In this document: piece after piece, positions 42,974 to 54,663 of the stretch
Numbering within the stretch: the stretch's first letter is position 1
Layout: each line of letters begins with the position of its first letter
NCBI RefSeq assembly: GCF_013363995.1
Contig: NZ_JABWGO010000011.1
Location: 1 to 64,000 of the forward strand
Origin: Nonomuraea rhodomycinica
GTDB lineage: Bacteria; Actinomycetota; Actinomycetes; Streptosporangiales; Streptosporangiaceae
DNA length: 64,000 nt
Direction of reading: 5' to 3'
Program-made: the position numbers and the translations under genes
Notes under the pieces: model-generated
Database searches by the model: none
The model's input: the letters and a program-made list of their open reading frames with translations, nothing else
Told to the model about the DNA's origin: nothing

Positions 42974-43055
42974 CGCGTACAGGATCTGCCGGGCCGGCGT
43001 CCGGATAGTTCGCGCGAGCATCGGGAAAGCGCAAAACTTCCTTTACTCAGCGTGC

Positions 43056-43061
43056 TATAAC
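43056..43061 (+). promoter_or_regulatory. Possible -10 element of the TPR regulator gene
   Basis: TATAAC about 90 bp before the ATG at 43150, in a less GC-rich patch (43025-43065). No convincing -35. Confidence 0.3.
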
Positions 43062-43149
43062 AGGAGCCCTCTGTAAGGACGCCGGCTCCCGCCTCCCTCG
43101 GTGAGGAGGCCACGACGTGGCCGGCTCCACTCCCGCGGTGAGGAGAGCG

Positions 43150-44508
43150 ATGACACGCGAGCCCAACAGACTGCTGCGGCAGCTCATCGCGGAGTCGGGG
43201 TTCTCCCACAAAGGGCTGGCCAGGCGCCTCAACGAGCTGGGCGCCGCGCGCGGCACCCCGGGCCTGAAGTACGACCACAGTTCCGTCCTGCGATGGATCG
43301 GTGGCCAGCGGCCCAGGGAGCCCGTGCCGGCGCTGCTCAGCGAGATCTTCGCGCTCCGGCTCGGCAGGCCCGTCCGACCCGAAGACCTGGGCATGCCGAC
43401 GATCATCACCCCCCTCGACCTCGGGCAAGAGTTCACGCACACGTGGCAGGAGGGGGTCGCGACCGTGACGGCGCTGTGGCGGGCCGACGTGGAGAGAAGG
43501 AGATTCCTGATCGACTCCACGTTCGCGATAGGAGCAGGCTCCGTGGGAGCCGTGCGCTGGCTGACATCCCCATCCGAGGGCCGCCTCGAAGGCGGCGGCA
43601 CCCGCCGCGTCGGCCGGGCCGACATCGCGGCCATCCACGAGGTGACCCGCTCGTTCGGCGAGCTCGACAACCGCTTCGGCAGCGGGCGCGTGCGCGCCTC
43701 CGTGGTCAAGTACCTCGACACCGCCGTGGGGCCGCTGCTCAAGGACGGCACGTACGGCGAGGCCACAGGCAAGCAGCTCGCCGCCGCCGCGGCCGAGCTC
43801 ACCCGGCTGGCCGGCTGGATGGCCTACGACCTGGAGCAGCACGGCCTCGCCCAGCGCTACCTCATCCAGGCGCTGCGCCTGGCCAGGGGAGCGGGCGACG
43901 ACGCGCTCGGCGGCGAGATCCTGGCCGGCATGGCCCACCAGGCCATCTACATGAGCCAGCCGGCCCACGCCCTCGACCTGGCCAGGGCCGCCCAGCTCGC
44001 GGCCCGGCGCTCCGGTGTCCAGACGCTCATGGCCTCCTGCCACGTGCTCGAGGCCCACGCCCACGCCGGGCTCGGCGACGCCCGCTCGTGCAGCGCCAGC
44101 CTCCACCAGGCCGAGCTGGCCTTCGACCGCCGCTCACCGGGCCGCGAGCCCGCCTGGCTCGGCTACTTCGACGAGGCCTACCTCGCCGCCAAGTTCGCCC
44201 ACTGCTTCCGCGACCTCGGCGACGGGCCGCGCGCCGTGCGCCAGGCCCGCCGCTCGCTCGACATGGACGGCCGCTACGTGCGGGGCCGGATGTTCAACCT
44301 GTCGCTGCTGGCCGCCGGGCTGCTCCAGTGCGGCGAGCTGGAGGAGGCGTGCGGGGTGGCGGCCGGGGCTCTGGACCTGGCCGGGGAGCTCCAGTCGGTC
44401 AGGTCCCGCTCCTACGCCACCGACCTGCGCCGGCGGCTGGAACCGTACCGGCGCGAGAGCGCGGTCACGTCCCTGTACGAACGCGCCCGCGCCCTCGCGC
44501 CGGTCTGA
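43150..44508 (+). CDS. HTH/TPR regulatory protein
   Basis: 452 residues from ATG 43150 with GAGGAGAG upstream. N-terminal XRE-like DNA-binding region (NRLLRQLIAESGFSHKGLARRLNELG, SSVLRWIGGQRP). A linker with a hydrophobic segment (STFAIGAGSVGAVRWL) follows, then TPR-like helical repeats to the end (GWMAYDLEQHGLAQRYLIQALRLAR, ARAAQLAARRS.). Proteins of this build regulate development and antibiotic production in Streptomyces (NsdA-like), sensing unknown partners. Convergent with the first trypsin-fold gene, 3 bp apart. Confidence 0.75.
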   Translation: MTREPNRLLRQLIAESGFSHKGLARRLNELGAARGTPGLKYDHSSVLRWIGGQRPREPVPALLSEIFALRLGRPVRPEDLGMPTIITPLDLGQEFTHTWQEGVATVTALWRADVERRRFLIDSTFAIGAGSVGAVRWLTSPSEGRLEGGGTRRVGRADIAAIHEVTRSFGELDNRFGSGRVRASVVKYLDTAVGPLLKDGTYGEATGKQLAAAAAELTRLAGWMAYDLEQHGLAQRYLIQALRLARGAGDDALGGEILAGMAHQAIYMSQPAHALDLARAAQLAARRSGVQTLMASCHVLEAHAHAGLGDARSCSASLHQAELAFDRRSPGREPAWLGYFDEAYLAAKFAHCFRDLGDGPRAVRQARRSLDMDGRYVRGRMFNLSLLAAGLLQCGELEEACGVAAGALDLAGELQSVRSRSYATDLRRRLEPYRRESAVTSLYERARALAPV

Positions 44509-44511
44509 CCC

Positions 44512-46011
44512 TCAGCTGCCGATCAGTTCACCGTTGGGGCCGACGATCGACTTCGTCGCCGCGTAGTTCGCCTTGTTGTAGACGTCGGCGACCTCGCCGT
44601 CGAAGTAGGCCGAGCTGATGAAGTCGATCCGGTCGTTGCCGTCCTGGTCGTGGAACAGGCTCGTGACGCCGTTGACGTAGCCGGTGCGCTTGTTGTTGTC
44701 GTAGCGCAGCAGCCACGGCGCGCCGTCGGAGCCGCCGGTCATCGAGCACTTCAGCACCTGGTGCGTCTCGACCTTGAACATGTTGACCTGGTAGGTCTTG
44801 GTGCCCGTCCGGCCGGCGCAGATCTTGGGGGTCAGGCCGGTGAAGGGCTTGTCGCCGTCGGGGTGCGGGGCGGCGGGGTAGCCGAAGACGGTCACCTTCT
44901 GTCCCATGGGCTGGTTCCAGGCGACACCCTGCCCGCCGACGACGTCACCGAGCCGGCCGGCGTCCTTGGCCAGGCCGAGGGTGAAGACCGTCCTGAAGTA
45001 GTCGGTCTTGGCGCTCTCCTTGACCCAGTAGCCGATGAAGTAGTGGGTGATGGTGAAGTTGCCGCTGCCGTCGATCTTCCGGTAGCCGGGGCCCTTGTAG
45101 GCTTCGTACTCGCTCTGGGTGACGTGGTCGACGACAGTCTTGGCGGGCTCCTGCGCGCCGTTGCCGTCACCGGTCGGGGCCTTGTCGAAGTCCTCCTTGG
45201 CGACCTCCTTGAAGGCCCGCTTCTTGCCCGGGAAGGACGGTCCGACGACGTCGGTGAGGGTGGACAGCTTCGCCCAGCAGTCGGGCGTCTCGCCGCCGTG
45301 CAGGTCGACGCACTTGTTGTACGTGGCCGCGTCGATGGGTTCGTCCTTGGCCCACTTGTCGCCGGCCCACTTGTCGTACTCCGCCTTGGACACCGTCTTC
45401 TCACCAGCGAGCTCGAAGCCGTTGTGCACCGCCACGAACGCGAAGTCGCCGTCGTAGTCGTCGTAGGTGTCGAGGTCGTAGGCGGTGAAGGCGTACGCGC
45501 CCGCGTACACGCCGAACGGGGCCTTGCCCTGGTAGTAGCCCGGGACGAACACCCACTTGGCGAAGACGTCCTTGCCCTGCTCGTAGACGCAGTGGCCGGC
45601 CGTGGCGACCAGGTTGCGGTTCCTGGCCTGGATGGAGGTGGCGGAGCACCAGCGCTGGTTGCCGGCGCGGTCGAGGAAGAACACCTTGCCGATGGTCTTC
45701 GGCAGGTTCACGTTCTTGGACTTGGGCGCGGCGCCGGTGGTGCCGGTCGGGGCCGCCATGCCGGGCTTGCCGTCGGCCGAGGTGGTCTGGGGGTGCACCA
45801 GCTTGGGCACGTCCTTGGCGTCGACGCGGAACTCGGTGGCCTTCTTCAGGGCGGCGCCGTTGGCGTCCAGCCAGAAGTACGCGGAGCTGTAGGCGTCGGC
45901 GGGCTTGGGGGTGAGGGGGTCGCTCACCCAGCTCGGCGCGGCGGTGGCGGGGGTGGCGAGGGCGGCGGCGCTGAGACCGGCGACGGCGAGGGGTACGAGC
46001 AGGCGCTTCAC
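44512..46011 (-). CDS. Secreted trypsin-fold protein 1, Ser-to-Asp pseudoprotease
   Basis: 499 residues from GTG 46011 with GGAG upstream; signal peptide MKRLLVPLAVAGLSAAALATPATA. Trypsin-like domain: WCSATSIQARNRNLVATAGHC (His retained), GDFAFVAVHNG (Asp retained), but the nucleophile loop reads GGSDGAPW with Asp in the Ser position. An insertion of roughly 145 residues between the Asp and Ser regions contains TVSKAEYDKW, PIDAATYNKC, EVAKEDFDKA and HVTQSEYEAY repeats and the pair C..GGETPDCWAK. Most diverged of the three insertion-bearing copies. Likely a secreted binding protein or proteolytically inactive relative; other functions are possible. Confidence 0.85.
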   Translation of the reverse strand: MKRLLVPLAVAGLSAAALATPATAAPSWVSDPLTPKPADAYSSAYFWLDANGAALKKATEFRVDAKDVPKLVHPQTTSADGKPGMAAPTGTTGAAPKSKNVNLPKTIGKVFFLDRAGNQRWCSATSIQARNRNLVATAGHCVYEQGKDVFAKWVFVPGYYQGKAPFGVYAGAYAFTAYDLDTYDDYDGDFAFVAVHNGFELAGEKTVSKAEYDKWAGDKWAKDEPIDAATYNKCVDLHGGETPDCWAKLSTLTDVVGPSFPGKKRAFKEVAKEDFDKAPTGDGNGAQEPAKTVVDHVTQSEYEAYKGPGYRKIDGSGNFTITHYFIGYWVKESAKTDYFRTVFTLGLAKDAGRLGDVVGGQGVAWNQPMGQKVTVFGYPAAPHPDGDKPFTGLTPKICAGRTGTKTYQVNMFKVETHQVLKCSMTGGSDGAPWLLRYDNNKRTGYVNGVTSLFHDQDGNDRIDFISSAYFDGEVADVYNKANYAATKSIVGPNGELIGS

Positions 46012-46105
46012 TGGGGGGCTCCACAAACTTGTCAAGTGTCTCGTAAGACCCTATCGACCCTCAGGTCACTTAGGTAAGGGTCCGTACCAAAAGACCCGGA
46101 AAAGG

Positions 46106-46137
46106 CCGAAGGGCCCGGCAGAAGCCGAGCCCTTCGG
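46106..46137 (-). terminator. Terminator hairpin after trypsin-fold gene 2
   Basis: CCGAAGGGC (46106-46114) pairs with GCCCTTCGG (46129-46137), with an inner CGGC/GCCG extension, 50 bp past the stop on the minus strand; TTTTCC follows on that strand. Confidence 0.75.
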
Positions 46138-46187
46138 GTCAAGCTGGTGAACGATGACCCAGGGTCGTCGTTCGGTACCGCCAAGAA

Positions 46188-47699
46188 CTACTTGACAAGC
46201 TTGCCGGACCACACGGCCGCAGCGGCCTTGTAGATCGCGGCGGTCTCGCCGTCGAAGATCGGCGAGGTGATCTTGTCGTAGCGGCCGTTGCTGTCGGTGT
46301 CCACGATCAGGCTGGTGACACCGGTGACGTAGCCGAGACGCTTGGCGTTGCTGTACTTGGCGAGCCAGGGGCCACCGTCGTAGCCGGCGGTCACCGGGCA
46401 ACGCAGGCTCTGGTGCTCCTCGACCTTCTTGGCCGGGATCTGCAGAACCTTGGACTCGGTCTTGCCGTAGCACCACTTCGGCGTGACACCCGTGTAGGGC
46501 TTGTTGCCGTCGGGGTGCGGGCCCGCCGGGTAACCGAAGGTACGGACGACGGCACCAGCAGGCTGGTTCCACGCCACACCCTGGCCACCGACGTTGTCAC
46601 CGAGGCGGCCGACGTCCTTGAGGGAGCCGTCCACGATGTAGAACTCGGTGCGGAGGTACTCGACCTTGGCGGTCTCCTTCACCCAGTACTTGACGAAGTA
46701 GTGGGTGATGGTGAAGTTGCCCTTGTCGTCGATCTTCCGGTAGCCCGGGCCGGTGTAGCCCTTGTACTGGGACTCCGTCACGTACTCGGTGTAGGTCGCG
46801 CCGGTGGCCTTGCCGCCGTTGACCTTACCCTCGGGGGCCTTGGCGTAGTCCTCCGCCGAGACCTCCTTCAGAACCTTGACGGCGTTCGGGTAGTCCGGGC
46901 CGACCGTGTCCTGGATGGTGGACGGCTTGGCCCAGCAGTCCGGGGTCTCGCCACCGTTGAGGTCCTTGCACTTGGTGTACTCGGCCTCGGAGATCGCGAT
47001 GTCCTTGGTGAACTTCTGCCCACCGAACTTGTCGAAGTCGGCCTTGGAGACCTGCTTCGGAGCGCCGGCGTTGGGGCCGCCGATGCCGTTGTACACGGTC
47101 ACGAACGCGTAGTCGCGGTCGAAGTCCTCGTACACGTCGAGGTCGTAGTGGGTGAAGGCCTGCTTACCCACGTAGAGGCCGAACGGCGTCTTGCCCTGGT
47201 AGTAGCCCGGGACGAAGACCCAGCGGCTCACGACCTCGTTGTTGGCGGCCATGTCGTAGACGCAGTGCCCGGCCGTGGCGACCAGGTTGCGGTACTGCGA
47301 CTGGATCGAGGTGCCGGAGCACCAGTACAGCTTGCCGTCGCGACCCTCGAAGAAGACCTTGCCGATGGTCTTCGGCAGGTTCACGTTCTGGGTCTTGACC
47401 GCGACCTTCTTCTCCTCGCCGATCGGCAGAGCCGAGCCCGGCTTGGTGTCGGCGGAGTAGCCGCCGCCGCTCTTGATCTTCTTGACCTCGAGCGAGTCGG
47501 GGTTGAAGGCAACGGCCTGCGTCAGCGCGGCGTTGTTCGACTTGGTCCAGAAGTCGACGACCTCGGCGGCCTGCGCCTCGGTCTTGGCCAGAGCGTCAGT
47601 CGCGACGTCGCCCTGGGCCTGAGCAGTGCCGGCCAGACCAGCAGCCAGCAGACCGGTGGCCAGAATGGCGCCACCGGCGGGGAGGAGGATGCGCTTCAA
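46188..47699 (-). CDS. Secreted trypsin-fold protein 2, Ser-to-Asp pseudoprotease
   Basis: 503 residues from TTG 47699 (GGAG upstream; an ATG at 47741 would add 14 unconserved residues). Signal peptide to AQA. His145 in ATAGHC and Asp196 in DRDYAFV are kept; the nucleophile position is Asp441 in AGYDGGPW. Insertion from about 205 to 350 with four V-[ST]-x-x-[ED]-[YF]-like repeats (VSKADF 217, ISEAEY 236, VSAEDY 280, VTESQY 307) and CKDLNGGETPDCWAK. Has its own upstream region with a perfect CRP-type site and its own terminator, so it is transcribed separately. Catalytic activity as a serine protease is not expected. Confidence 0.87.
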   Translation of the reverse strand: MKRILLPAGGAILATGLLAAGLAGTAQAQGDVATDALAKTEAQAAEVVDFWTKSNNAALTQAVAFNPDSLEVKKIKSGGGYSADTKPGSALPIGEEKKVAVKTQNVNLPKTIGKVFFEGRDGKLYWCSGTSIQSQYRNLVATAGHCVYDMAANNEVVSRWVFVPGYYQGKTPFGLYVGKQAFTHYDLDVYEDFDRDYAFVTVYNGIGGPNAGAPKQVSKADFDKFGGQKFTKDIAISEAEYTKCKDLNGGETPDCWAKPSTIQDTVGPDYPNAVKVLKEVSAEDYAKAPEGKVNGGKATGATYTEYVTESQYKGYTGPGYRKIDDKGNFTITHYFVKYWVKETAKVEYLRTEFYIVDGSLKDVGRLGDNVGGQGVAWNQPAGAVVRTFGYPAGPHPDGNKPYTGVTPKWCYGKTESKVLQIPAKKVEEHQSLRCPVTAGYDGGPWLAKYSNAKRLGYVTGVTSLIVDTDSNGRYDKITSPIFDGETAAIYKAAAAVWSGKLVK

Positions 47700-47732
47700 G
47701 GTAACTCCTTGCGCTGTCGTGGAACGCCTCTT

Positions 47733-47760
47733 GCGTCCCATGCGTCAGTAAAGGGATAGC
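47733..47760 (-). promoter_or_regulatory. 28-bp block conserved upstream of trypsin-fold genes 2 and 3
   Basis: The 28 bases here are identical to 49676-49703 upstream of gene 3, while flanking sequence differs. A TATCTT (gene 2) or TATGTT (gene 3) lies 5-6 nt further upstream on the minus strand and could be the -10, which would place the block at the transcript start. Confidence 0.55.
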
Positions 47761-47899
47761 CAGAAGATACAGGCGCGATCTTGGGCTGCGGTAGCCACTT
47801 TGGAAGGAAAACAGGGGGCTTGTCGGCCGTGATCGTTCTGTGATGTTTAGATCGGCTATCGCCACGACTTGTCCGGTGTGCCTGACGCGCCCGTTTTCC

Positions 47900-47924
47900 C
47901 TGATCAACACGAGCGAGTGATCAG
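47900..47924. repeat. Paired TGATCA inverted repeat upstream of trypsin-fold gene 2
   Basis: CTGATCA (47900-47906) and TGATCAG (47918-47924) form an inverted repeat with an 11-nt spacer; possible operator. The rest of 47761-48056 has no gene. Confidence 0.4.
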
Positions 47925-47973
47925 AGTGACTGCTGGGGGCGAGGTGTCGGCGATCAGACCCCGTCGGCATGGA

Positions 47974-47989
47974 TGTGACGCACATCACA
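47974..47989. promoter_or_regulatory. CRP-type operator upstream of trypsin-fold gene 2
   Basis: TGTGA-CGCACA-TCACA, an exact match to the CRP consensus, about 275 bp upstream of the TTG start and 213 bp upstream of the conserved 28-bp block. Confidence 0.7.
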
Positions 47990-48056
47990 CCGCTCGGATG
48001 GCACCGTATGAGCCTCCGCTGCGTCCAAACGGTCCGCACTTTCTCCGGGAACGCCG

Positions 48057-48081
48057 AAGGGCCCGGCGATGCCGGGCCCTT
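48057..48081 (-). terminator. Terminator hairpin after trypsin-fold gene 3
   Basis: AAGGGCCCGGC (48057-48067) / GCCGGGCCCTT (48071-48081), perfect 11-bp stem with a 3-nt loop, 50 bp past the stop on the minus strand. Confidence 0.85.
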
Positions 48082-48130
48082 GACGAGTGAACGCGGGGTC
48101 GATCGGGTCAGCCCGATCGGGGTGCGCTAC

Positions 48131-49639
48131 TTAGAGGATCTTGCCGGACCACACGTTCGAGGCGGCCTTGTAGATCGCCGCGGTCTCGCCGTCGAAGTAC
48201 GGCGAGGAGATGTAGTCGACGCGACCGTTGCCGTCCTGGTCGTTGAAGGTGCTGGTGACACCGTTCACGTAGCCGAGACGCTTGGTGTTGCTGTAGTTGA
48301 GCAGCCACGGACCACCGTCGGCGCCCTCGGTCATCGAGCACTTGAGGGCGATGTGCTCCTCGATCTTCTTGGCGGCGGAGCCGACAAGCTTCTTCGAGGT
48401 CTTCCCGTAGCACCACTTGGGCGTGATGCCGGTGAAGTTCTTGTTGCCGTCGGGGTGCGCGGCGGCCGGGTAGCCGAACACGCGGACGTACTTGCCGGTG
48501 GGCTGGTTCCAGGCGACACCCTGACCGCCGACGTTGTCACCGAGACGGCCGGCGTCCTTCGCGAAGCCCTCGATGATGTAGAAGACGGTCTTGTAGTAAC
48601 CCTTGAGGTCGGTCTTCTTCACCCAGTTCTTCACGAAGTAGTGGGTGATGGTGTAGTTGCCCCGCTCGTCGATCTTGCGGTAGCCCGGGCCCTTGTAGCT
48701 CTCGTACTCGGACTTGGTGACGTTCTCCGTCTTGGTCTGACGGGGCGCCTTGGTGTTGTTGCCCGAGCCCGTGGGGGCCGCGTCGTACTGCTCCTTGGTG
48801 ACCTCGGTGAAGGCCTTGACCGCGCCGGGGTAGTCGGGGCCGACGGCCTCGATCTTCGTGTCGGTCTTCGCCCAGCAGTCCGGGGTCTCGCCGCCGTTGA
48901 GGTCCTTGCACTTCTGGTACTCGGCCTCGGTGATCGCCACGTCCTTGGCATCCTTGATGCCCTGGTACTTGTCGAAGTCGGCCTTGGAGACCTGCTTGGC
49001 GGTGGCACCGCCGAACTGGATGCCGTTGTACACGGTCACGAACGCGTAGTCGCGGTCGTAGTCCTCGTACACGTCGAAGTCGTAGTGCGTGAACGCCTGC
49101 TTACCGACGTAGATGCCCCACGGCGACTTGCCCTGGTAGTAACCCGGGACGAAGACCCACTTGGACATGACGTCCGTGTTGCCGGCCGTGTCGTACACGC
49201 AGTGGCCGGCCGTGGCGACCAGGTTGCGGTACTTCGACTGGACGGAAGTGGCGGAGCACCACTTCTTCTCGCCCTTGCTGTTGACGAAGAAGACCTTGCC
49301 GATGGTCTTCGGCAGGTTCACGTTCTGAACCTTGACCGTGGTCTTCTTCTCCTGGCCGATCGGCGAGGCCGAGCCCGGCTTCGTGTCGGCGCTGTAGCCG
49401 CCCTTGCTCTGGAGCTTGGCGACGTCGCTCTTGTCCCAGACGTTGGACTCGGTCGCGGCCTTGAGGGCCGCACCGTTGCTCTCGGCCCAGTACTGGGCGA
49501 TGGCCTTGGCGTCGGCCGCGCTCTTCGCCATCGGGTCGGTGGCGACGTCTCCGGCGGCCTGGGCGGTGCCGGCGAGGCCGGCAGCCAGAAGGCCGGTAGC
49601 CAGGATGGCGCCACCGGCGGGGATGAGGATGCGCTTCAA
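48131..49639 (-). CDS. Secreted trypsin-fold protein 3, Ser-to-Asp pseudoprotease
   Basis: 502 residues from TTG 49639, closest to protein 2 in length and sequence. Signal peptide MKRILIPAGGAILATGLLAAGLAGTAQA. His in LVATAGHC and Asp in DRDYAFVTV retained; nucleophile loop is EGADGGPW with Asp for Ser. The insertion has QVSKADFDKY, AITEAEYQKC, EVTKEQYDAA and NVTKSEYESY repeats plus CKDLNGGETPDCWAK. Separate promoter region with a perfect CRP-type site, and a hairpin terminator. Probably the product of a recent duplication with gene 2. Confidence 0.87.
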   Translation of the reverse strand: MKRILIPAGGAILATGLLAAGLAGTAQAAGDVATDPMAKSAADAKAIAQYWAESNGAALKAATESNVWDKSDVAKLQSKGGYSADTKPGSASPIGQEKKTTVKVQNVNLPKTIGKVFFVNSKGEKKWCSATSVQSKYRNLVATAGHCVYDTAGNTDVMSKWVFVPGYYQGKSPWGIYVGKQAFTHYDFDVYEDYDRDYAFVTVYNGIQFGGATAKQVSKADFDKYQGIKDAKDVAITEAEYQKCKDLNGGETPDCWAKTDTKIEAVGPDYPGAVKAFTEVTKEQYDAAPTGSGNNTKAPRQTKTENVTKSEYESYKGPGYRKIDERGNYTITHYFVKNWVKKTDLKGYYKTVFYIIEGFAKDAGRLGDNVGGQGVAWNQPTGKYVRVFGYPAAAHPDGNKNFTGITPKWCYGKTSKKLVGSAAKKIEEHIALKCSMTEGADGGPWLLNYSNTKRLGYVNGVTSTFNDQDGNGRVDYISSPYFDGETAAIYKAASNVWSGKIL

Positions 49640-49675
49640 GGGAACTGCTCCTTGGTCTGTCGTGGGTCGCAACAT

Positions 49676-49703
49676 GCGTCCCATGCGTCAGTAAAGGGAT
49701 AGC
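49676..49703 (-). promoter_or_regulatory. 28-bp conserved block upstream of trypsin-fold gene 3
   Basis: Identical to 47733-47760. Begins 37 bp before the TTG start. See the gene 2 entry for the possible -10. Confidence 0.55.
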
Positions 49704-49908
49704 AAGGAACATAGCGCGGTGATCTTTGCAGGTGGAAGCCGGTTTGCCCCATTCGGTAGGCACCCTTACCGCCGTGACCCTTCCGTTACCAGTCAGTGAT
49801 CTTTGCCCAAAGTGATCAAGGCGTCACGTTTTCGCTGGGTATCGCGCGGTTTCGTAACGGCGGAGTAAAGGTGGATCAAACGGACATCACGCTACGTGTT
49901 CGCGTGTA

Positions 49909-49924
49909 TGTGATGTAGATCACA
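49909..49924. promoter_or_regulatory. CRP-type operator upstream of trypsin-fold gene 3
   Basis: TGTGA-TGTAGA-TCACA, exact CRP consensus, 270 bp upstream of the start and 205 bp upstream of the conserved block; nearly the same spacing as for gene 2. The region 49704-50051 has no gene. Confidence 0.7.
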
Positions 49925-50046
49925 GGAACCAAATCGGGCTCCAACTCCGTCTAACTTCGCCTCCGAGCCGGATGATCTTCTGAATCGGCGTCCCCGGCGA
50001 TGTTTTCGACCCCTCCCCACCCTCCCGCGAGCCAAACCGCGGGCAC

Positions 50047-50077
50047 GAAAAAGGGGCCCGGCCGAAGCCGGGCCCCT
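50047..50077 (-). terminator. Intrinsic terminator after trypsin-fold gene 4
   Basis: AGGGGCCCGGC (50052-50062) / GCCGGGCCCCT (50067-50077) with loop CGAA, followed on the minus strand by TTTTTC. Textbook rho-independent form. Confidence 0.93.
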
Positions 50078-50092
50078 CCGTCGAGCGGGGTG

Positions 50093-51259
50093 TTACTTGT
50101 ACAGCTCGCCGTTCGAGCCGACGATCTTGCCGGACCACACGTTCTTGGCCGCGTTGTAGATCGACGCCGTCTCACCGTCGAAGTACGGCGAGGTGATGGT
50201 GTCGATGCGGTCGTTGCCGTCCTGGTCGGCGAACGTGCTGGTCACGCCGTTGACGTAGCCCAGACGCTTGCTGTTGCTGTAGTTGCTCAGCCAGGGGCCG
50301 CCGTCGAAGCCGGGCGTGACGGGGCACTTGAGGCCCACGTGCTCCTCGATCTTGAGCCACGGGGCGCCCACGGCCTTGCCGGTCGTCGCGCCGTAGCACC
50401 ACTTCGGCGTCACGCCGCTGTAGGGGCGGTTGCCGTCCGGGTGCGGGCCGGCGGGGTAGCCGAACGCGCGCACCGTCTTGCCCGTGGGCTGGTTCCAGGC
50501 CACGCCCTGGCCGCCGACGTTGTCGCCCAGGCGGCCCGCGTCCTTCGACAGCAGGATGTAGTAGTGGCCGCCCCAGCTGCGCTTCGGGCCGCTGAACCGC
50601 TCGAAGTCCTTGCGGTCCACCTGCTTGACGCCCTCGAAGGCGATGCCGTTGAAGACGGTGACGAACGCGTAGTCGCGGTCGTAGTCCTCGTAGACGTCGA
50701 AGTCGCTGTGGGTGAAGGCCTGCTTGCCGACGTAGATGCCGAACGGCGCCTTGCCCTCGTAGTAGCCGGGCACGAACACCCAGTTGCTCATCGTGTCCTT
50801 GTTGCTGTCCGTGTCGTACACGCAGTGGCCGGCCGTGGCGACCAGGTTGCGGTAGTTGGACTGCACGGACGTGGCCGTGCACCAGCGGAACTTGCCGGAG
50901 CCGTCCACGAAGAACACCTTGCCGACCGTCTTGGGCAGGTTGACGTTCTGCGCGCGGCCGATGGGCTTCTTGTCCTCGCCGATGGGCGCGGCGGTGCCGG
51001 GGCTGCCGTCCGCGGTGTAGCCGCCCTTGGAGACGAGCTTCCGGACCTCCTTGGCATCCCAGTCGTACGCCGTGGCGGAGCGGAGCGCGGCGCCGTTGGA
51101 GGCCAGCCAGAACGAGGCGACCGAGGCGGCCTGCGAGGTGTTGCGGGCCATGGGGTCGGTGGCGATGTCGGCTCGGGCCTGCGCGGTGCCGGTGAGGCCC
51201 GCGGCCAGAAGGCCGGTGGCCAGGACGACGCCACCGGTCGGGAGGAGGATTCGCTTCAA
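50093..51259 (-). CDS. Secreted trypsin-fold protein 4, Ser-to-Asp pseudoprotease, short form
   Basis: 388 residues from TTG 51259 with GGAG upstream. Signal peptide MKRILLPTGGVVLATGLLAAGLTGTAQA. Catalytic His (VATAGHC) and Asp (DRDYAFVTV) kept; nucleophile loop PGFDGGPW has Asp. It lacks most of the insertion of copies 1-3: only one repeat (QVDRKDFERF) remains before SKDAGRLGDN, so it looks like an internal deletion of about 125 residues. A near-consensus CRP-type site lies upstream and a strong terminator downstream. Confidence 0.87.
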   Translation of the reverse strand: MKRILLPTGGVVLATGLLAAGLTGTAQARADIATDPMARNTSQAASVASFWLASNGAALRSATAYDWDAKEVRKLVSKGGYTADGSPGTAAPIGEDKKPIGRAQNVNLPKTVGKVFFVDGSGKFRWCTATSVQSNYRNLVATAGHCVYDTDSNKDTMSNWVFVPGYYEGKAPFGIYVGKQAFTHSDFDVYEDYDRDYAFVTVFNGIAFEGVKQVDRKDFERFSGPKRSWGGHYYILLSKDAGRLGDNVGGQGVAWNQPTGKTVRAFGYPAGPHPDGNRPYSGVTPKWCYGATTGKAVGAPWLKIEEHVGLKCPVTPGFDGGPWLSNYSNSKRLGYVNGVTSTFADQDGNDRIDTITSPYFDGETASIYNAAKNVWSGKIVGSNGELYK

Positions 51260-51396
51260 GGTAACTCCAGGCTTTGCCTTGTGCTGCCGGGGTTCCGTAC
51301 ATCCCTCGGTGCAGCAGACGGACAGCCGGGAACCTATCGGTCTGACTCCGCGCCTGTGAATTTCGCGAAGCTCATGTCATCCGCCGATGAGGCGGT

Positions 51397-51417
51397 CGTG
51401 ATCTTTTCGAGATCACG
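51397..51417. repeat. Inverted repeat upstream of trypsin-fold gene 4
   Basis: CGTGATCT (51397-51404) and AGATCACG (51410-51417), loop 5 nt. It could be an operator for gene 4 or a weak terminator for gene 5. Confidence 0.45.
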
Positions 51418-51452
51418 TCGTGGCTGATCACCGCGGGGGTTGCCACGCTACG

Positions 51453-51468
51453 TGTAAGTTACGTCACA
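51453..51468. promoter_or_regulatory. CRP-like site upstream of trypsin-fold gene 4
   Basis: TGTAA-GTTACG-TCACA, one mismatch from consensus, 194 bp upstream of the gene 4 start and overlapping the last codons of gene 5. Confidence 0.5.
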
Positions 51469-52553
51469 TTTGCGGGGGTGGTGACCGCCGCCGCGTGGCG
51501 GTAGACCTCGCCGGTGGCGAGGGTGAAGTTGGGCGTGGACATGGCGTCGTAGCCACCCTTGGCGTCCCGGTTCCACGTCAGGCTGTTGATCCCGTTCAGC
51601 GAGCCGAGGCCCTGCGCGGGCTGGTAGTCGATCAGCCACGGGCCGCCGCTGGCGCCCGCGGTGAAGTTGCACGGCTCGATCTGCACGCCGTACTGCAGGT
51701 CGCGGCTGGGGGCGACGGTCCAGCGGGTGCTGCCCGTGCACGACAGGAGCTTGCGCCCGTCGAACGGCCGGGTGCCGTCGGGCTGCGGGCCGGCCGGGTA
51801 GCCGAAGGTGGTGACGCGGTTGCCCACGCCCTTGGCGACGGCCAGGCCCTGGCCGCCGACGTTGTCCTGGAGGCGGCCGACGTCCTTCATGACGAGCTTG
51901 CCGCCCACGGTGGCCCAGGTGAAGCCGCGATGCACGGTCACGAACGCGTAGTCGTAGTCGTAGTCACCCCGGCCGGGCCAGTGCTCGTGCATGCTGATCT
52001 CCGCGCCGACGTAGATGCCGTCGGGCGTCTCGCCGTTGGGGCCGGGGTTCGGGACGAAGATCCACGAGTCGGCCGGCTTGGCCTGGCGGGCGTCGTAGGC
52101 GCAGTGCGCGGCGGTGGCGACGACGCTGTGGTTCCTGGCGGCCACCGCGCTGGCGGAGCACCAGTACTCCTTGGTCCCGAACCGGAAGTACACCTTGCCC
52201 ATGGTCCGGGCGGTCGTGCCCTTGGCCGGCAGTTCCGGCGAGACGCTGAGCGGGACCTTGGCCTTCTTGGCGGGGGTGAGCTGCTCGCTGGGCACGGCGG
52301 TGGCGCCCGCGCTCGTGGAGGACTGCGAGCCCGGCGTCGCGGGACTGTAGCTGTCGGCGTTCTTCAGGACGTCCGGCTTCCAGGTGGCGGCCACCTTCTG
52401 GACGTCCGCGGCGGTCTTGGTGAGCGTCACCGAGTAGACCCAGCTCTCGGCCCGCGCGTACGCCGTCCCCCCGAACGCCGTCCCCCCGAGCACGGGCAGC
52501 GCGAGCAGCGCGCTGAGCGCGACGGCTGCCAGTCGCCGGACCGGGGGGATCAT
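51459..52553 (-). CDS. Secreted trypsin-like serine protease 5, intact catalytic Ser
   Basis: 364 residues from ATG 52553 with AAGGAAGG upstream. Signal peptide ends near AYA. Trypsin-like domain with YWCSASAVAARNHSVVATAAHC (His), YDYAFVTVHRG (Asp) and TAGASGGPW (Ser present), so the triad is complete. No insertion: the Asp region joins KDVGRLQDNVGGQG directly. It shares the N-terminal prodomain-like region (TKTAADVQKVAATW) with copies 1-4. Likely an active V8/trypsin-type extracellular endopeptidase and the nearest model of the ancestral form. Confidence 0.87.
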   Translation of the reverse strand: MIPPVRRLAAVALSALLALPVLGGTAFGGTAYARAESWVYSVTLTKTAADVQKVAATWKPDVLKNADSYSPATPGSQSSTSAGATAVPSEQLTPAKKAKVPLSVSPELPAKGTTARTMGKVYFRFGTKEYWCSASAVAARNHSVVATAAHCAYDARQAKPADSWIFVPNPGPNGETPDGIYVGAEISMHEHWPGRGDYDYDYAFVTVHRGFTWATVGGKLVMKDVGRLQDNVGGQGLAVAKGVGNRVTTFGYPAGPQPDGTRPFDGRKLLSCTGSTRWTVAPSRDLQYGVQIEPCNFTAGASGGPWLIDYQPAQGLGSLNGINSLTWNRDAKGGYDAMSTPNFTLATGEVYRHAAAVTTPANVT

Positions 52554-52751
52554 GGAAATGCCTTCCTTGGGGTGTAAAGGTGGATTTTTCCAGATCAACT
52601 GACTGTATTGCAGCTCAGATGAAGATTCGTTATCTGATCAAGCGTGACTTGTGTCCCATAAGGATGGTGTCAAGTAGGCCGTCCGGATAGGTGAGACTGC
52701 TCCCACGTGTCGGTCGTTGCCGCAGGTCAGGGGCCGAGGCAGGCTGCGAGC

Positions 52752-53111
52752 ATGCGTCGACTTCTCTGTCTCGCCGTGCTTTCCTGTACGGCATTCGCCG
52801 CCACGCCCGCCCTGGCCGAGACTCACTCTCGTGACACGGATCGGAGGGTTTTCGTGATCATTGTTGGCGACAAGGGCACCGTCTTGTCGTGCCGGCAGCG
52901 CTCGCCCAAGCCCGCGTGCGTCGCCCTCGAAAGGGCCGGCGGCGACCCCGCCCGGCTGCCCTCGCGGACCGACGCGGTCTGCACGATGGAGTACAACCCG
53001 GTGCGCGTCTCGGCGCTCGGCGTCTGGGGCGGCCGCCCGGTCCGCTACGAACGCACGTTCTCGAACAGCTGCCAGATGCAGGCGGCGATGGGGCCGCTCT
53101 CCCAGTTCTGA
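52752..53111 (+). CDS. Subtilisin-inhibitor-like (SSI family) secreted protein
   Basis: 119 residues from ATG 52752. Signal peptide (LLCLAVLSCTAFAATPALA). Mature part has four Cys (47, 56, 77, 107) in SSI spacing, the reactive loop CTMEYNPV (SSI: CPMVYDPV; P1 Met79, P1' Glu80) and the C-terminal VWGGRPVRYERTFSNSCQM block. SSI proteins inhibit subtilisin- and trypsin-like proteases outside the cell and are substrates of transglutaminase in some species. Divergent from protease 5 with 198 bp between. Confidence 0.88.
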   Translation: MRRLLCLAVLSCTAFAATPALAETHSRDTDRRVFVIIVGDKGTVLSCRQRSPKPACVALERAGGDPARLPSRTDAVCTMEYNPVRVSALGVWGGRPVRYERTFSNSCQMQAAMGPLSQF

Positions 53112-53148
53112 CCACGAGCGTCTCCGACCACGAGCTCCGAAAGCGACA

Positions 53149-53175
53149 GGGACCTCGGCCGCGCGCCGAGGTCCC
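53149..53175 (+). terminator. Terminator hairpin after the SSI gene
   Basis: GGGACCTCGGC (53149-53159) / GCCGAGGTCCC (53165-53175), perfect 11-bp stem, 5-nt loop, 37 bp past the stop. Confidence 0.8.
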
Positions 53176-53226
53176 CGCCGCTTTCCGGGGGAAGCGCACC
53201 GAATCGCGTTCTGCTTTCATGGCGGC

Positions 53227-54663
53227 ATGGACCCACGCACGCCCTGCCTCGTCGGCGCGGCCCAGCTGACCGTCCGCGAGCAGCCCGGTCCCGAGCCGCT
53301 GGACCTGTGGGAGGCGGTCGCGCGGGCCGCGGCCGACGACGCCCGGCTGCCCGCCCGGCGGCTCGGCTCGATCCAGGTGGTCCACACCGACTCCTGGCAG
53401 TACGACGACCCCGCCGGACGCCTGGCCGAACGGCTCGGCGCGGCGCCCGGGCACACCGCGTACTCCAAGGTCAGCGGCACGGCGCCGCAACTGCTCATCG
53501 GCGAGGCCGCCGCGCGGATCGCCGCTGGCGGGCTCGACTGCGCCCTCGTCGTGGGCGCCGAGGCGCTGGCCACCCGCCGCGCCTACCGGAAGGCGGGCGA
53601 GCGCGTGCCGTGGAGCCACCCGGCGGTCCCCAAACCGCCCTACGGCTGGGAACGCCCGCCGCATCCCGCCGAGCTGGCGCACGGGCTGTTCCTGCCGGTC
53701 CACACGTACGCGATCATGGAGACGGCCCGGCGGGCGGCCCTCGGCTGGACCCTCGAGCAGGAGATGGCCGACCGGGCCCGGATGATGGCCCCCATGACCG
53801 AGGTGGCCGCCGCCAACCCGTACGCCTGGCGCCGCGTCCCGCGCACCCCGGAGGAGCTGACGGGCGGCCGGTTCGTCGGCTGGCCGTACACGCGCGACAC
53901 CGTGGCCGTGCTGGAGGTGGACCAGGCCGCGGCGGTGGTGCTGGTCAGCGCCGGGCTGGCCGACCGGCTGGGCGTCCCGGAGGAGCGGCGGATCCACCTG
54001 CGCGGCTGGGCGTACGCCGAGGACACCTGGGAGGTGGCCGCGCGGCCCGCGCTCGGCTCGTCACGGGCGATCGCGCGGGCGGCGCGGGCGGCCTTCGCCC
54101 GGGCCGGGCTCGGGCTCGGCGACATGAACGCCCTCGACGTGTACAGCTGCTTCGCCGTCGCCCTGCGGCAGGCGTGCGACGCGACCGGGCTCGACCCGTT
54201 CGACCCGCGCGGGCTCACGGTGACCGGCGGGCTGCCGTACGCGGGCGGCCCGGCCAGCGACTACGTCCTCCACTCGACCGCCGCCATGGCCGGGCTGCTG
54301 CGCGCGCGGGGCGGCCACGGCCTGGTGACCTCGGTCGGCATGCACCTGACCAAGCACGCCTGCGCGATCTGGTCCACCGAGCCGGGAGGCGCGCTCGGCG
54401 ACGGCCGCCCGGTCTTCACCGCCGAGCCGGTCGCGATCGCCGACGTGTACGAGGGCCCGGCGGTCGTCGCGGGCTACACCGTGGCGCACGGGCGCGACGG
54501 GACGGCCGAGCGGGGCATCCTCGTCGTGGACCTCCCCGGCGGCGGCCGGGCGCACGCGCTCGTCCACGATCCGGGCCTGATGGCGGAGGCGGAGGCGCGC
54601 GAGCTGGTCGGCGAGACGGTGCGGCTGGCCTCCGACGGGCGGGTGAACACGGCCACCTGGTGA
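53227..54663 (+). CDS. Thiolase-family acetyl-CoA acetyltransferase-like protein
   Basis: 478 residues from ATG 53227. Thiolase fold of the SCP-x/acetyltransferase subgroup. Starts with PCLVGAAQLTVRE and has ALVVGAEAL; the active-site region has DVYSCFAVALRQACDA, NDVYSCFAxA being typical of this subgroup. The usual N-terminal nucleophile Cys is not evident (KVSGTAPQLL in its place), so the reaction may differ from classical thiolysis. A C-terminal TRAM-like/OB domain (~390-478) completes the protein. Confidence 0.75.
   Translation: MDPRTPCLVGAAQLTVREQPGPEPLDLWEAVARAAADDARLPARRLGSIQVVHTDSWQYDDPAGRLAERLGAAPGHTAYSKVSGTAPQLLIGEAAARIAAGGLDCALVVGAEALATRRAYRKAGERVPWSHPAVPKPPYGWERPPHPAELAHGLFLPVHTYAIMETARRAALGWTLEQEMADRARMMAPMTEVAAANPYAWRRVPRTPEELTGGRFVGWPYTRDTVAVLEVDQAAAVVLVSAGLADRLGVPEERRIHLRGWAYAEDTWEVAARPALGSSRAIARAARAAFARAGLGLGDMNALDVYSCFAVALRQACDATGLDPFDPRGLTVTGGLPYAGGPASDYVLHSTAAMAGLLRARGGHGLVTSVGMHLTKHACAIWSTEPGGALGDGRPVFTAEPVAIADVYEGPAVVAGYTVAHGRDGTAERGILVVDLPGGGRAHALVHDPGLMAEAEARELVGETVRLASDGRVNTATW

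Follow-up and report, generated by a model that had tools for sequence, protein, structure and literature searches.

A tandem array of five genes in Nonomuraea rhodomycinica (Streptosporangiaceae) encodes secreted proteins of the trypsin fold, and in four of them Asp stands where the catalytic Ser would be. The array lies at positions 44512 to 52553 of the window, the whole 64,000-nucleotide stretch that was analysed (NCBI RefSeq assembly GCF_013363995.1, contig NZ_JABWGO010000011.1, positions 1 to 64,000). Copies 1-4 have a trypsin-like double barrel nearest to the structures 3wy8 and 3cp7, in which the His and Asp of the triad are kept and the Ser of the GxSGGPW loop is replaced; only copy 5 keeps that Ser. 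Copies 1-4 are proposed to be secreted pseudoproteases that act by binding, most likely together with the Ser paralogue or in its service, a reading given a probability of about 0.55; binding by an inactive protein is the most likely class of answer. As far as sequences and models can tell, they combine the features of a pseudoprotease, with the fold kept, an essential residue replaced and the gene under selection.

The array and its loop codons

The genes of the array are listed here with the codon for residue 195 in each.

44512-46011, reverse strand: copy 1 (slot E), secreted trypsin-fold protein with Asp at residue 195 and with the insert (open reading frame (ORF) list, five-copy alignment)
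44725-44727, reverse strand: GAC codon of copy 1 at the Ser195 position, loop GSDGAPW (pattern search, codon reading)
46188-47699, reverse strand: copy 2 (slot D, the labile slot), Asp at residue 195, with the insert (ORF list, alignment, slot counts)
46377-46379, reverse strand: GAC codon of copy 2, loop GYDGGPW (pattern search, codon reading)
48131-49639, reverse strand: copy 3 (slot C), Asp at residue 195, with the insert, the protein used for modelling (ORF list, alignment, model)
48317-48319, reverse strand: GAC codon of copy 3, loop GADGGPW (pattern search, codon reading)
48545-49021, reverse strand: insert region of copy 3, mature residues 180-338, with a confident predicted fold (structure prediction, searches)
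50093-51259, reverse strand: copy 4 (slot B), Asp at residue 195, without the insert (ORF list, alignment, slot counts)
50303-50305, reverse strand: GAC codon of copy 4, loop GFDGGPW (pattern search, codon reading)
51459-52553, reverse strand: copy 5 (slot A), complete His-Asp-Ser triad, without the insert (ORF list, alignment, Pfam)
51648-51650, reverse strand: AGC codon of copy 5, the catalytic Ser, loop GASGGPW (codon reading)

A preliminary description of this DNA had claimed five same-strand paralogues that share a signal peptide, the His and the Asp, with Asp in place of Ser in copies 1-4. The ORF list and the alignment agree with the first claim, and the second was confirmed by reading the codons directly, GAC in four copies and AGC in one. 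Across the window, the GAC-bearing loop pattern occurs at exactly four sites (44713-44733, 46365-46385, 48305-48325 and 50291-50311) against 0.05 expected, and none of 100 shuffles reaches four. In the five-copy alignment neither the His (in TAGHC, or in TAAHC for copy 5) nor the Asp (in DYAF/DFAF) varies, and copies 2, 3, 4 and 5 share 55, 59, 56 and 34 % identity with copy 1. The signal peptide predicted for copies 1-4 has an N-terminal Lys-Arg, a hydrophobic stretch and an Ala-x-Ala end, and that of copy 5 is similar; the most likely start positions of copies 1-5 are 46011, 47699, 49639, 51259 and 52553. The alignment places a long insert between Asp102 and residue 195 in copies 1-3 but not in copies 4 and 5. 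Against the Pfam Trypsin family (PF00089, gathering cut-off 20.6 bits), copies 1-4 score 14.1-16.5, below the cut-off, and copy 5 passes with 24.4.

Fold and position of the Asp

An AlphaFold2 model of mature copy 3 has a predicted local distance difference test (pLDDT) score of 90.6 and a predicted template modelling (pTM) score of 0.74. The model matches Anisep (3wy8) with Z 28.6 and a root-mean-square deviation (rmsd) of 2.0 over 216 residues, and AL20 (3cp7) with Z 28.1 and an rmsd of 2.0 over 214 residues; the next-best structure, at Z 21.9, falls well under both. A 58-member profile recovers the Anisep and AL20 chains with E values of 7.8e-33 and 1.2e-31, and the loop is aligned to their GSSGGPW. 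The model and the alignments thus put the Asp of copies 1-4 at the place of the catalytic Ser195. The structural comparison that had been called for was carried out with copy 3 and matched the Anisep/AL20 fold, and the possibility that a true nucleophile Ser lies elsewhere in these proteins was addressed by the profile alignment and by the fold, both of which place Asp at Ser195. A contact between Asp195 and His57 would follow from this arrangement.

In a passage of PMC6524800, AL20 and Anisep form the 'S1D new' structural group of chymotrypsin-like proteases. The array proteins are like them in the whole trypsin-core fold, the profile match, the place of the His and Asp and the loop motif. 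Unlike AL20 and Anisep, which have Ser in GSSGGPW, copies 1-4 have Asp, copies 1-3 carry the extra insert, and copies 1-4 fall short of the Pfam Trypsin cut-off.

Distribution and origin of the substitution

Relatives were sought in 200 genomes of the family of the window, from 68 genera. Matches were found in 188, and the best places gave 60 fetched stretches; 8 of the 224 matches were dropped for lack of full span, leaving an alignment of 216 members. A second scan found 258 relatives, of which the best 80 were kept, at 69 loci. A set of 422 distinct members remained after removal of 14 short sequences from 544 and of 108 identical ones from 530. The locus sets L044-L083 and L104-L172 overlap in genomes, and joint counts over their 102 loci are not independent.

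Residue 195 among the 216 aligned members is Ser in 92, Asp in 80, aliphatic in 27, Thr in 7, Ala in 6 and Asn in 4; one member scored as Asp, L096_1_873, has a shortened loop and a doubtful alignment. Among the 422 distinct members it is Asp in 202, Ser in 156, aliphatic in 27, Asn in 15, Thr in 9, Ala in 8 and Gly in 2, with 3 gapped. The Asp is conserved across genera, as had been suggested for checking: the fetched stretches represent 21 genus codes, and 13 of these have Asp copies, not counting an ambiguous case in a fourteenth. Among the best 80 of the 258 relatives, they are found in Nonomuraea, Thermoactinospora, Planobispora, Streptosporangium, Thermocatellispora, Planomonospora, Spongiactinospora and Microtetraspora, and in none of the four Sphaerisporangium loci. 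A class-wide sample of 296 genomes supplied loci from 13 genomes that lie outside the family; in 12 of these the residue is Ser and in one it is unreadable, and six distant members within the family all have Ser. Therefore, within a sample limited to best matches, the Asp state has been seen so far only in this family.

Two other features of the relatives can be added. In Sphaerisporangium (L162, L166, L167) and also in L062, L067, L072-L075 and L083, the long copy upstream carries Thr at the nucleophile position (GATGGPF/W); such copies are possibly Thr proteases or another inactive form. The two Cys residues that precede the nucleophile loop are lost together: both are present in 369 of the 422 members, both are absent in 52 and one only is present in 1.

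The history of the site was reconstructed on a tree of 85 representatives with column 195 excluded. Rows L099, L065_4722, L096_1, L098_2562, L097 and L044_1782 were dropped before a first such tree was built, and the 85-row bootstrap tree also omits L098_1375. A clade of 34 rows holds 28 Asp rows, with 3 Asn, 2 Ser and 1 Ala nested within it, at a bootstrap of 98 and a Shimodaira-Hasegawa-like approximate likelihood ratio test (SH-aLRT) value of 84. A one-site model places Asp at the base of this clade with posterior 0.97 and needs one Ser-to-Asp change, followed by two changes of Asp to Asn, one to Ala and one to Ser; elsewhere it has Ser lost in separate events to Asn, Thr, Ala and aliphatic residues. 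A FastTree analysis of all 216 rows agrees in outline, placing 75 of the 80 Asp rows in one clade of 84. The history favoured by the trees is one old change from Ser to Asp with the duplications after it, and in addition a separate recent case; the switch happened mostly once and falls in an ancestor of several Streptosporangiaceae genera. The separate case is a slot-0 orthologue in another genome of the Nonomuraea group (L044:1782-2933), with its own Ser-to-Asp change (GAC) and in-frame deletions. Given the single well-supported Asp clade, the Asp shared by copies 1-4 is mainly inheritance. The preliminary description, which had the Ser lost by the same replacement in four copies, is not supported as worded in this respect, as mostly one old event was inherited by the duplicates.

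Selection on the array copies

Gene order in the Nonomuraea arrays is stereotyped, and residue 195 can be counted slot by slot once ten loci with incomplete or irregular arrays are excluded. Ser is found in 14 of 14 slot 0 genes and in 30 of 30 in slot A (copy 5), and Asp in 29 of 30 in slot B (copy 4), 37 of 37 in slot C (copy 3) and 36 of 37 in slot E (copy 1). The Asn codon in the slots is AAC and the Ala codon mostly GCC, which fit single steps. The Ser codon is TCC in Nonomuraea sp. SYSU D8015 and Spongiactinospora and AGC in N. basaltis, while slot A uses AGC or AGT. The use of TCC, as opposed to the AGC or AGT of slot A, suggests that the Ser residues inside the Asp clade or slot D arose anew and were not retained. 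These are seen at 195 in Spongiactinospora (L152, L153, L158) and Nonomuraea (L113, L155), and four of the five use TCC. The Ser history of the Spongiactinospora group is ambiguous, since L056, which lies near it, has AGC.

The ratio of nonsynonymous to synonymous change (dN/dS, omega) was computed on 14 of the 27 full arrays, and over these 14 shared species is 0.107 for slot A, 0.056 for B, 0.104 for C, 0.159 for D and 0.069 for E. No internal stops occur among the rows of relatives listed from the 200-genome search. Judged by their sequences, the copies are under purifying selection and are not decaying genes. This agrees with the earlier suggestion of selection rather than decay, since omega in the Asp-fixed slots (0.056-0.104) compares with 0.107 in the Ser slot, and the stop codons in relatives that would mark pseudogenes were looked for and are absent from the rows listed.

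That the Asp copies are unneeded duplicates in slow decay is very improbable. Slot D is less constrained, with its omega of 0.159 and with seven changes at site 195 over a tree length of 8.76 against two over 15.11 in slots B, C and E together (p 0.015), and one slot-0 Asp relative (L044:1782-2933) carries in-frame deletions. However, omega in slots B, C and E equals or falls below that of the Ser slot, the listed rows are free of internal stops, and the same array order recurs in many Nonomuraea species; decay is already contradicted for copies 1, 3 and 4.

The catalytic residues and a proposed mechanism

Both His57 and Asp102 are intact in 199 of 202 Asp members and in 156 of 156 Ser members of the 422-member set. 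Gly193 and Gly196 are found without exception in the 419 members whose loop is readable. Counted together on the tree, His57 and Asp102 changed once over a length of 21.8 in the Asp clade but seven times over a length of 5.7 in the aliphatic clade, a difference with a binomial p of 1e-4 and, by Fisher's test on raw counts, of 1.4e-5. With fewer changes in the Asp clade than in the aliphatic clade, the comparison says that His57 and Asp102 matter more when Asp195 is present, which may be through an ion pair or through chemistry.

The aliphatic clade (L084-L096, L100-L103 and L097 of the window's own genome) has Ile, Leu, Met or Val at 195 in a GxGSLGSAW-like loop. It spans six other genus codes, with several copies per genome in both orientations (six in L087), and its His57 and Asp102 are eroding.

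In the proposed mechanism, the carboxylate of Asp195 would pair with His57 to form an Asp102-His57-Asp195 chain. Such pairing would close the ordinary acyl-enzyme route of proteolysis while the cleft stays folded. The Asp copies would be exported together with the Ser paralogue of their own array, and most likely would be partners or regulators of that paralogue that do not themselves cut, or would hold the same peptides uncleaved.

The same residues could instead catalyse, with Asp195, helped by His57, Asp102 and the oxyanion hole, attacking a substrate through its carboxylate. An Asp nucleophile is found in haloalkane dehalogenases and epoxide hydrolases, which have the alpha/beta-hydrolase fold; none of the structure matches listed for the copy 3 model is of that fold. 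The intact His57 and Asp102, which change far more slowly than in the aliphatic clade, the invariant Gly193 and Gly196 and the near-fixed Asp of slots B, C and E all speak for catalysis. It is nonetheless judged unlikely, as slot D orthologues carry Asn, Ala or Ser in 14 of 37 cases, relatives with Ile, Leu, Val or Met keep a conserved scaffold with no nucleophile, and no precedent surfaced in the literature searched. Furthermore, Phe stands at position 438 in 174 of the 202 Asp copies but in 10 of the 217 remaining members, and, if this position lies near residue 216 of the substrate cleft, where we place it, Phe there would tend to narrow the cleft. A bolder version, in which Asp102-His57-Asp195 supplies a chemistry new to the trypsin fold, as carboxylate nucleophile or general base, and the Ser returns in slot D are proteases regained, is something of a long shot; it would be the trypsin-fold counterpart of the Ser-to-Asp switch in alpha/beta hydrolases.

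A coupled change of position 438 to Phe with Asp195 was considered and rejected. The raw association is the strongest found (phi 0.82), but 12 phylogenetically independent pairs give no support (1.9 same against 0.9 other, median p 1), and Phe438 and Asp195 are therefore treated as inherited together, which is not proof of coupling.

The insert of copies 1-3

The insert region of copy 3, modelled by itself, is predicted to fold with a pLDDT of 90.8. It has no Pfam match, and its best matches among solved structures are E 0.084 by PDB sequence, E 0.2 by Foldseek and Z 2.5 by VIA, which does not show that the fold is new. The motif [VI][STD]xx[DEQ][YF], describing V-T-x-x-E-Y-like repeats and chosen after inspection of copy 3, occurs four times in that insert, a count reached in none of 2000 shuffles; over 250 inserts there are four in 23, three in 59, two in 114, one in 38 and none in 16.

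It is doubtful that the insert is the working part, with the trypsin fold as an export scaffold that displays it and position 195 free to change. Such a role would fit the confident fold of the insert and also its distribution, since 152 of the 202 Asp copies, all 15 Asn copies and 26 of the 27 aliphatic copies carry it, as opposed to 42 of 156 Ser copies. Yet 50 of the 202 Asp copies have no insert, including those of slot B, the most constrained slot, and some Ser copies carry one. The insert is also less conserved than the trypsin core, with a mean column identity of 31 % against 52 % for whole Asp copies, although the two sets were differently chosen.

Neighbouring genes

Two genes flank the array.

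52752-53111, forward strand: SSI-type (subtilisin inhibitor-like) protein, divergent from the array (Pfam SSI PF00720, E 1.6e-17; synteny)
43117-44508, forward strand: regulator-like gene, convergent, a conserved downstream neighbour of the array (ORF list, synteny)

The SSI protein scores 63.7 bits against a cut-off of 23.9 over profile positions 37-92 of 92, and has an SSI-like reactive loop, CTMEYNPV. The residue that we take to be P1 of this loop varies between species (Met, Arg, Lys, Ala, His, Thr, Leu, Glu). The regulator-like label is our own assumption for a gene with no Pfam family above cut-off, as is that of a neighbour presumed to be malic-enzyme-like. Among the 102 loci with at least three copies, in the two overlapping sets, the regulator-like gene is found at 87, the malic-enzyme-like gene at 87 and the SSI gene at 52. 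In the set L104-L172, the flank upstream of the array is 1,200 bases or longer at 49 loci; SSI adjoins the array at 24 of them, comprising 13 of the 15 loci from other genera and 11 of the 34 Nonomuraea loci.

With an SSI gene divergent beside the array here and adjacent in about half of the arrays, the Asp copies might be decoys that capture SSI-type inhibitors, whether made by the same organism or by a competitor, and thereby shield the Ser paralogue. This is not a likely role. An adjacent SSI was not found in 25 of the 49 arrays, whose genomes were not searched for SSI elsewhere, but all 25 keep Asp copies, and Sphaerisporangium loci L162, L166 and L167 have SSI and no Asp copy. It follows that SSI goes with the protease locus and not with the Asp state, and the inhibitor-sponge role put forward in the preliminary description is weakened. 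The Asp copies go with the Ser copy; 40 of 42 complete arrays in the set L104-L172, with the window's own array counted in, have an Asp copy, and 39 of these 40 also have a Ser copy.

The genome of the window holds further family members: L097 on C44 has Leu at 195, L098 on C11 comprises a tandem pair with Ser, and L099 is a distant member, also with Ser. An Rfam scan of 43000-54000 gave zero matches, and NCBIfam gave nothing above cut-off for the array proteins. A promoter scan at the locus gave one site against 0.4 expected and is not used as evidence.

Weighing the proposed binding role

Several observations weigh against secreted pseudoproteases that act by binding. The triad residues are both intact also in 14 of 15 Asn, 8 of 8 Ala and 20 of 27 aliphatic members, such that their retention is no proof of a job, and the contrast between the Asp and aliphatic clades is one pair of clades. 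Within the Asp clade, site 195 changed six times, and 132 of 378 columns changed less. Slot D tolerates Asn, Ala and Ser, with Asp in 23, Asn in 9, Ala in 3 and Ser in 2 of its 37 genes, and four lineages or species inside the Asp clade or slot D have Ser restored. The partnership with the Ser copy would be drawn from gene neighbourhood only, and in the set L044-L083 three of 22 complete arrays have no Ser copy in the fetched stretch; for two of these three, all but L052, longer loci show Ser copies further upstream.

Relation to known inactive homologues

Inactive homologues of proteases are already known as a class. The CspA and CspC proteins of clostridial spores are likewise bacterial inactive protease homologues and work with an active paralogue, CspB, but they are spore proteins of the subtilisin fold, whereas the proteins here have the trypsin fold and are encoded in secreted arrays. 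In insect serine protease homologues, the Ser is usually replaced by Gly. Such insect proteins, for example SPCLIP1 (PMC3764210), are secreted, have a trypsin fold and no working triad, and regulate active proteases; they differ from copies 1-4 as animal proteins with clip domains. A 2008 survey counted 42 putatively inactive serine protease homologues (SPHs) among 966 proteins from 91 prokaryotic genomes, in five families, and the sections of it available describe no Ser-to-Asp family and no tandem arrays (PMC2605481).

Literature searches did not find Nonomuraea combined with pseudoprotease. Among the matches listed, pseudoprotease terms do not occur in related papers, and neither S195D nor Ser195Asp was found. 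A word search of the main text of a secreted-proteome paper (PMC4514598) found no mention of the array proteases. Because inactive homologues are known as a class and no Ser-to-Asp precedent was found, the tandem Ser-to-Asp family would be a new variant within that class.

Secreted and conserved protease homologues with no nucleophile are well known in animals and, in a non-exhaustive review of the literature, little described in bacteria. The locus shows stages of such a change side by side, from an intact Ser through a fixed Asp, drift to Asn or Ala and an apparent return of Ser to an aliphatic clade whose triad is eroding. The question of what a dead active site is selected for is thereby made directly testable with a few proteins and deletions, and an unusual Asp-His-Asp arrangement is brought within reach of a crystal structure.

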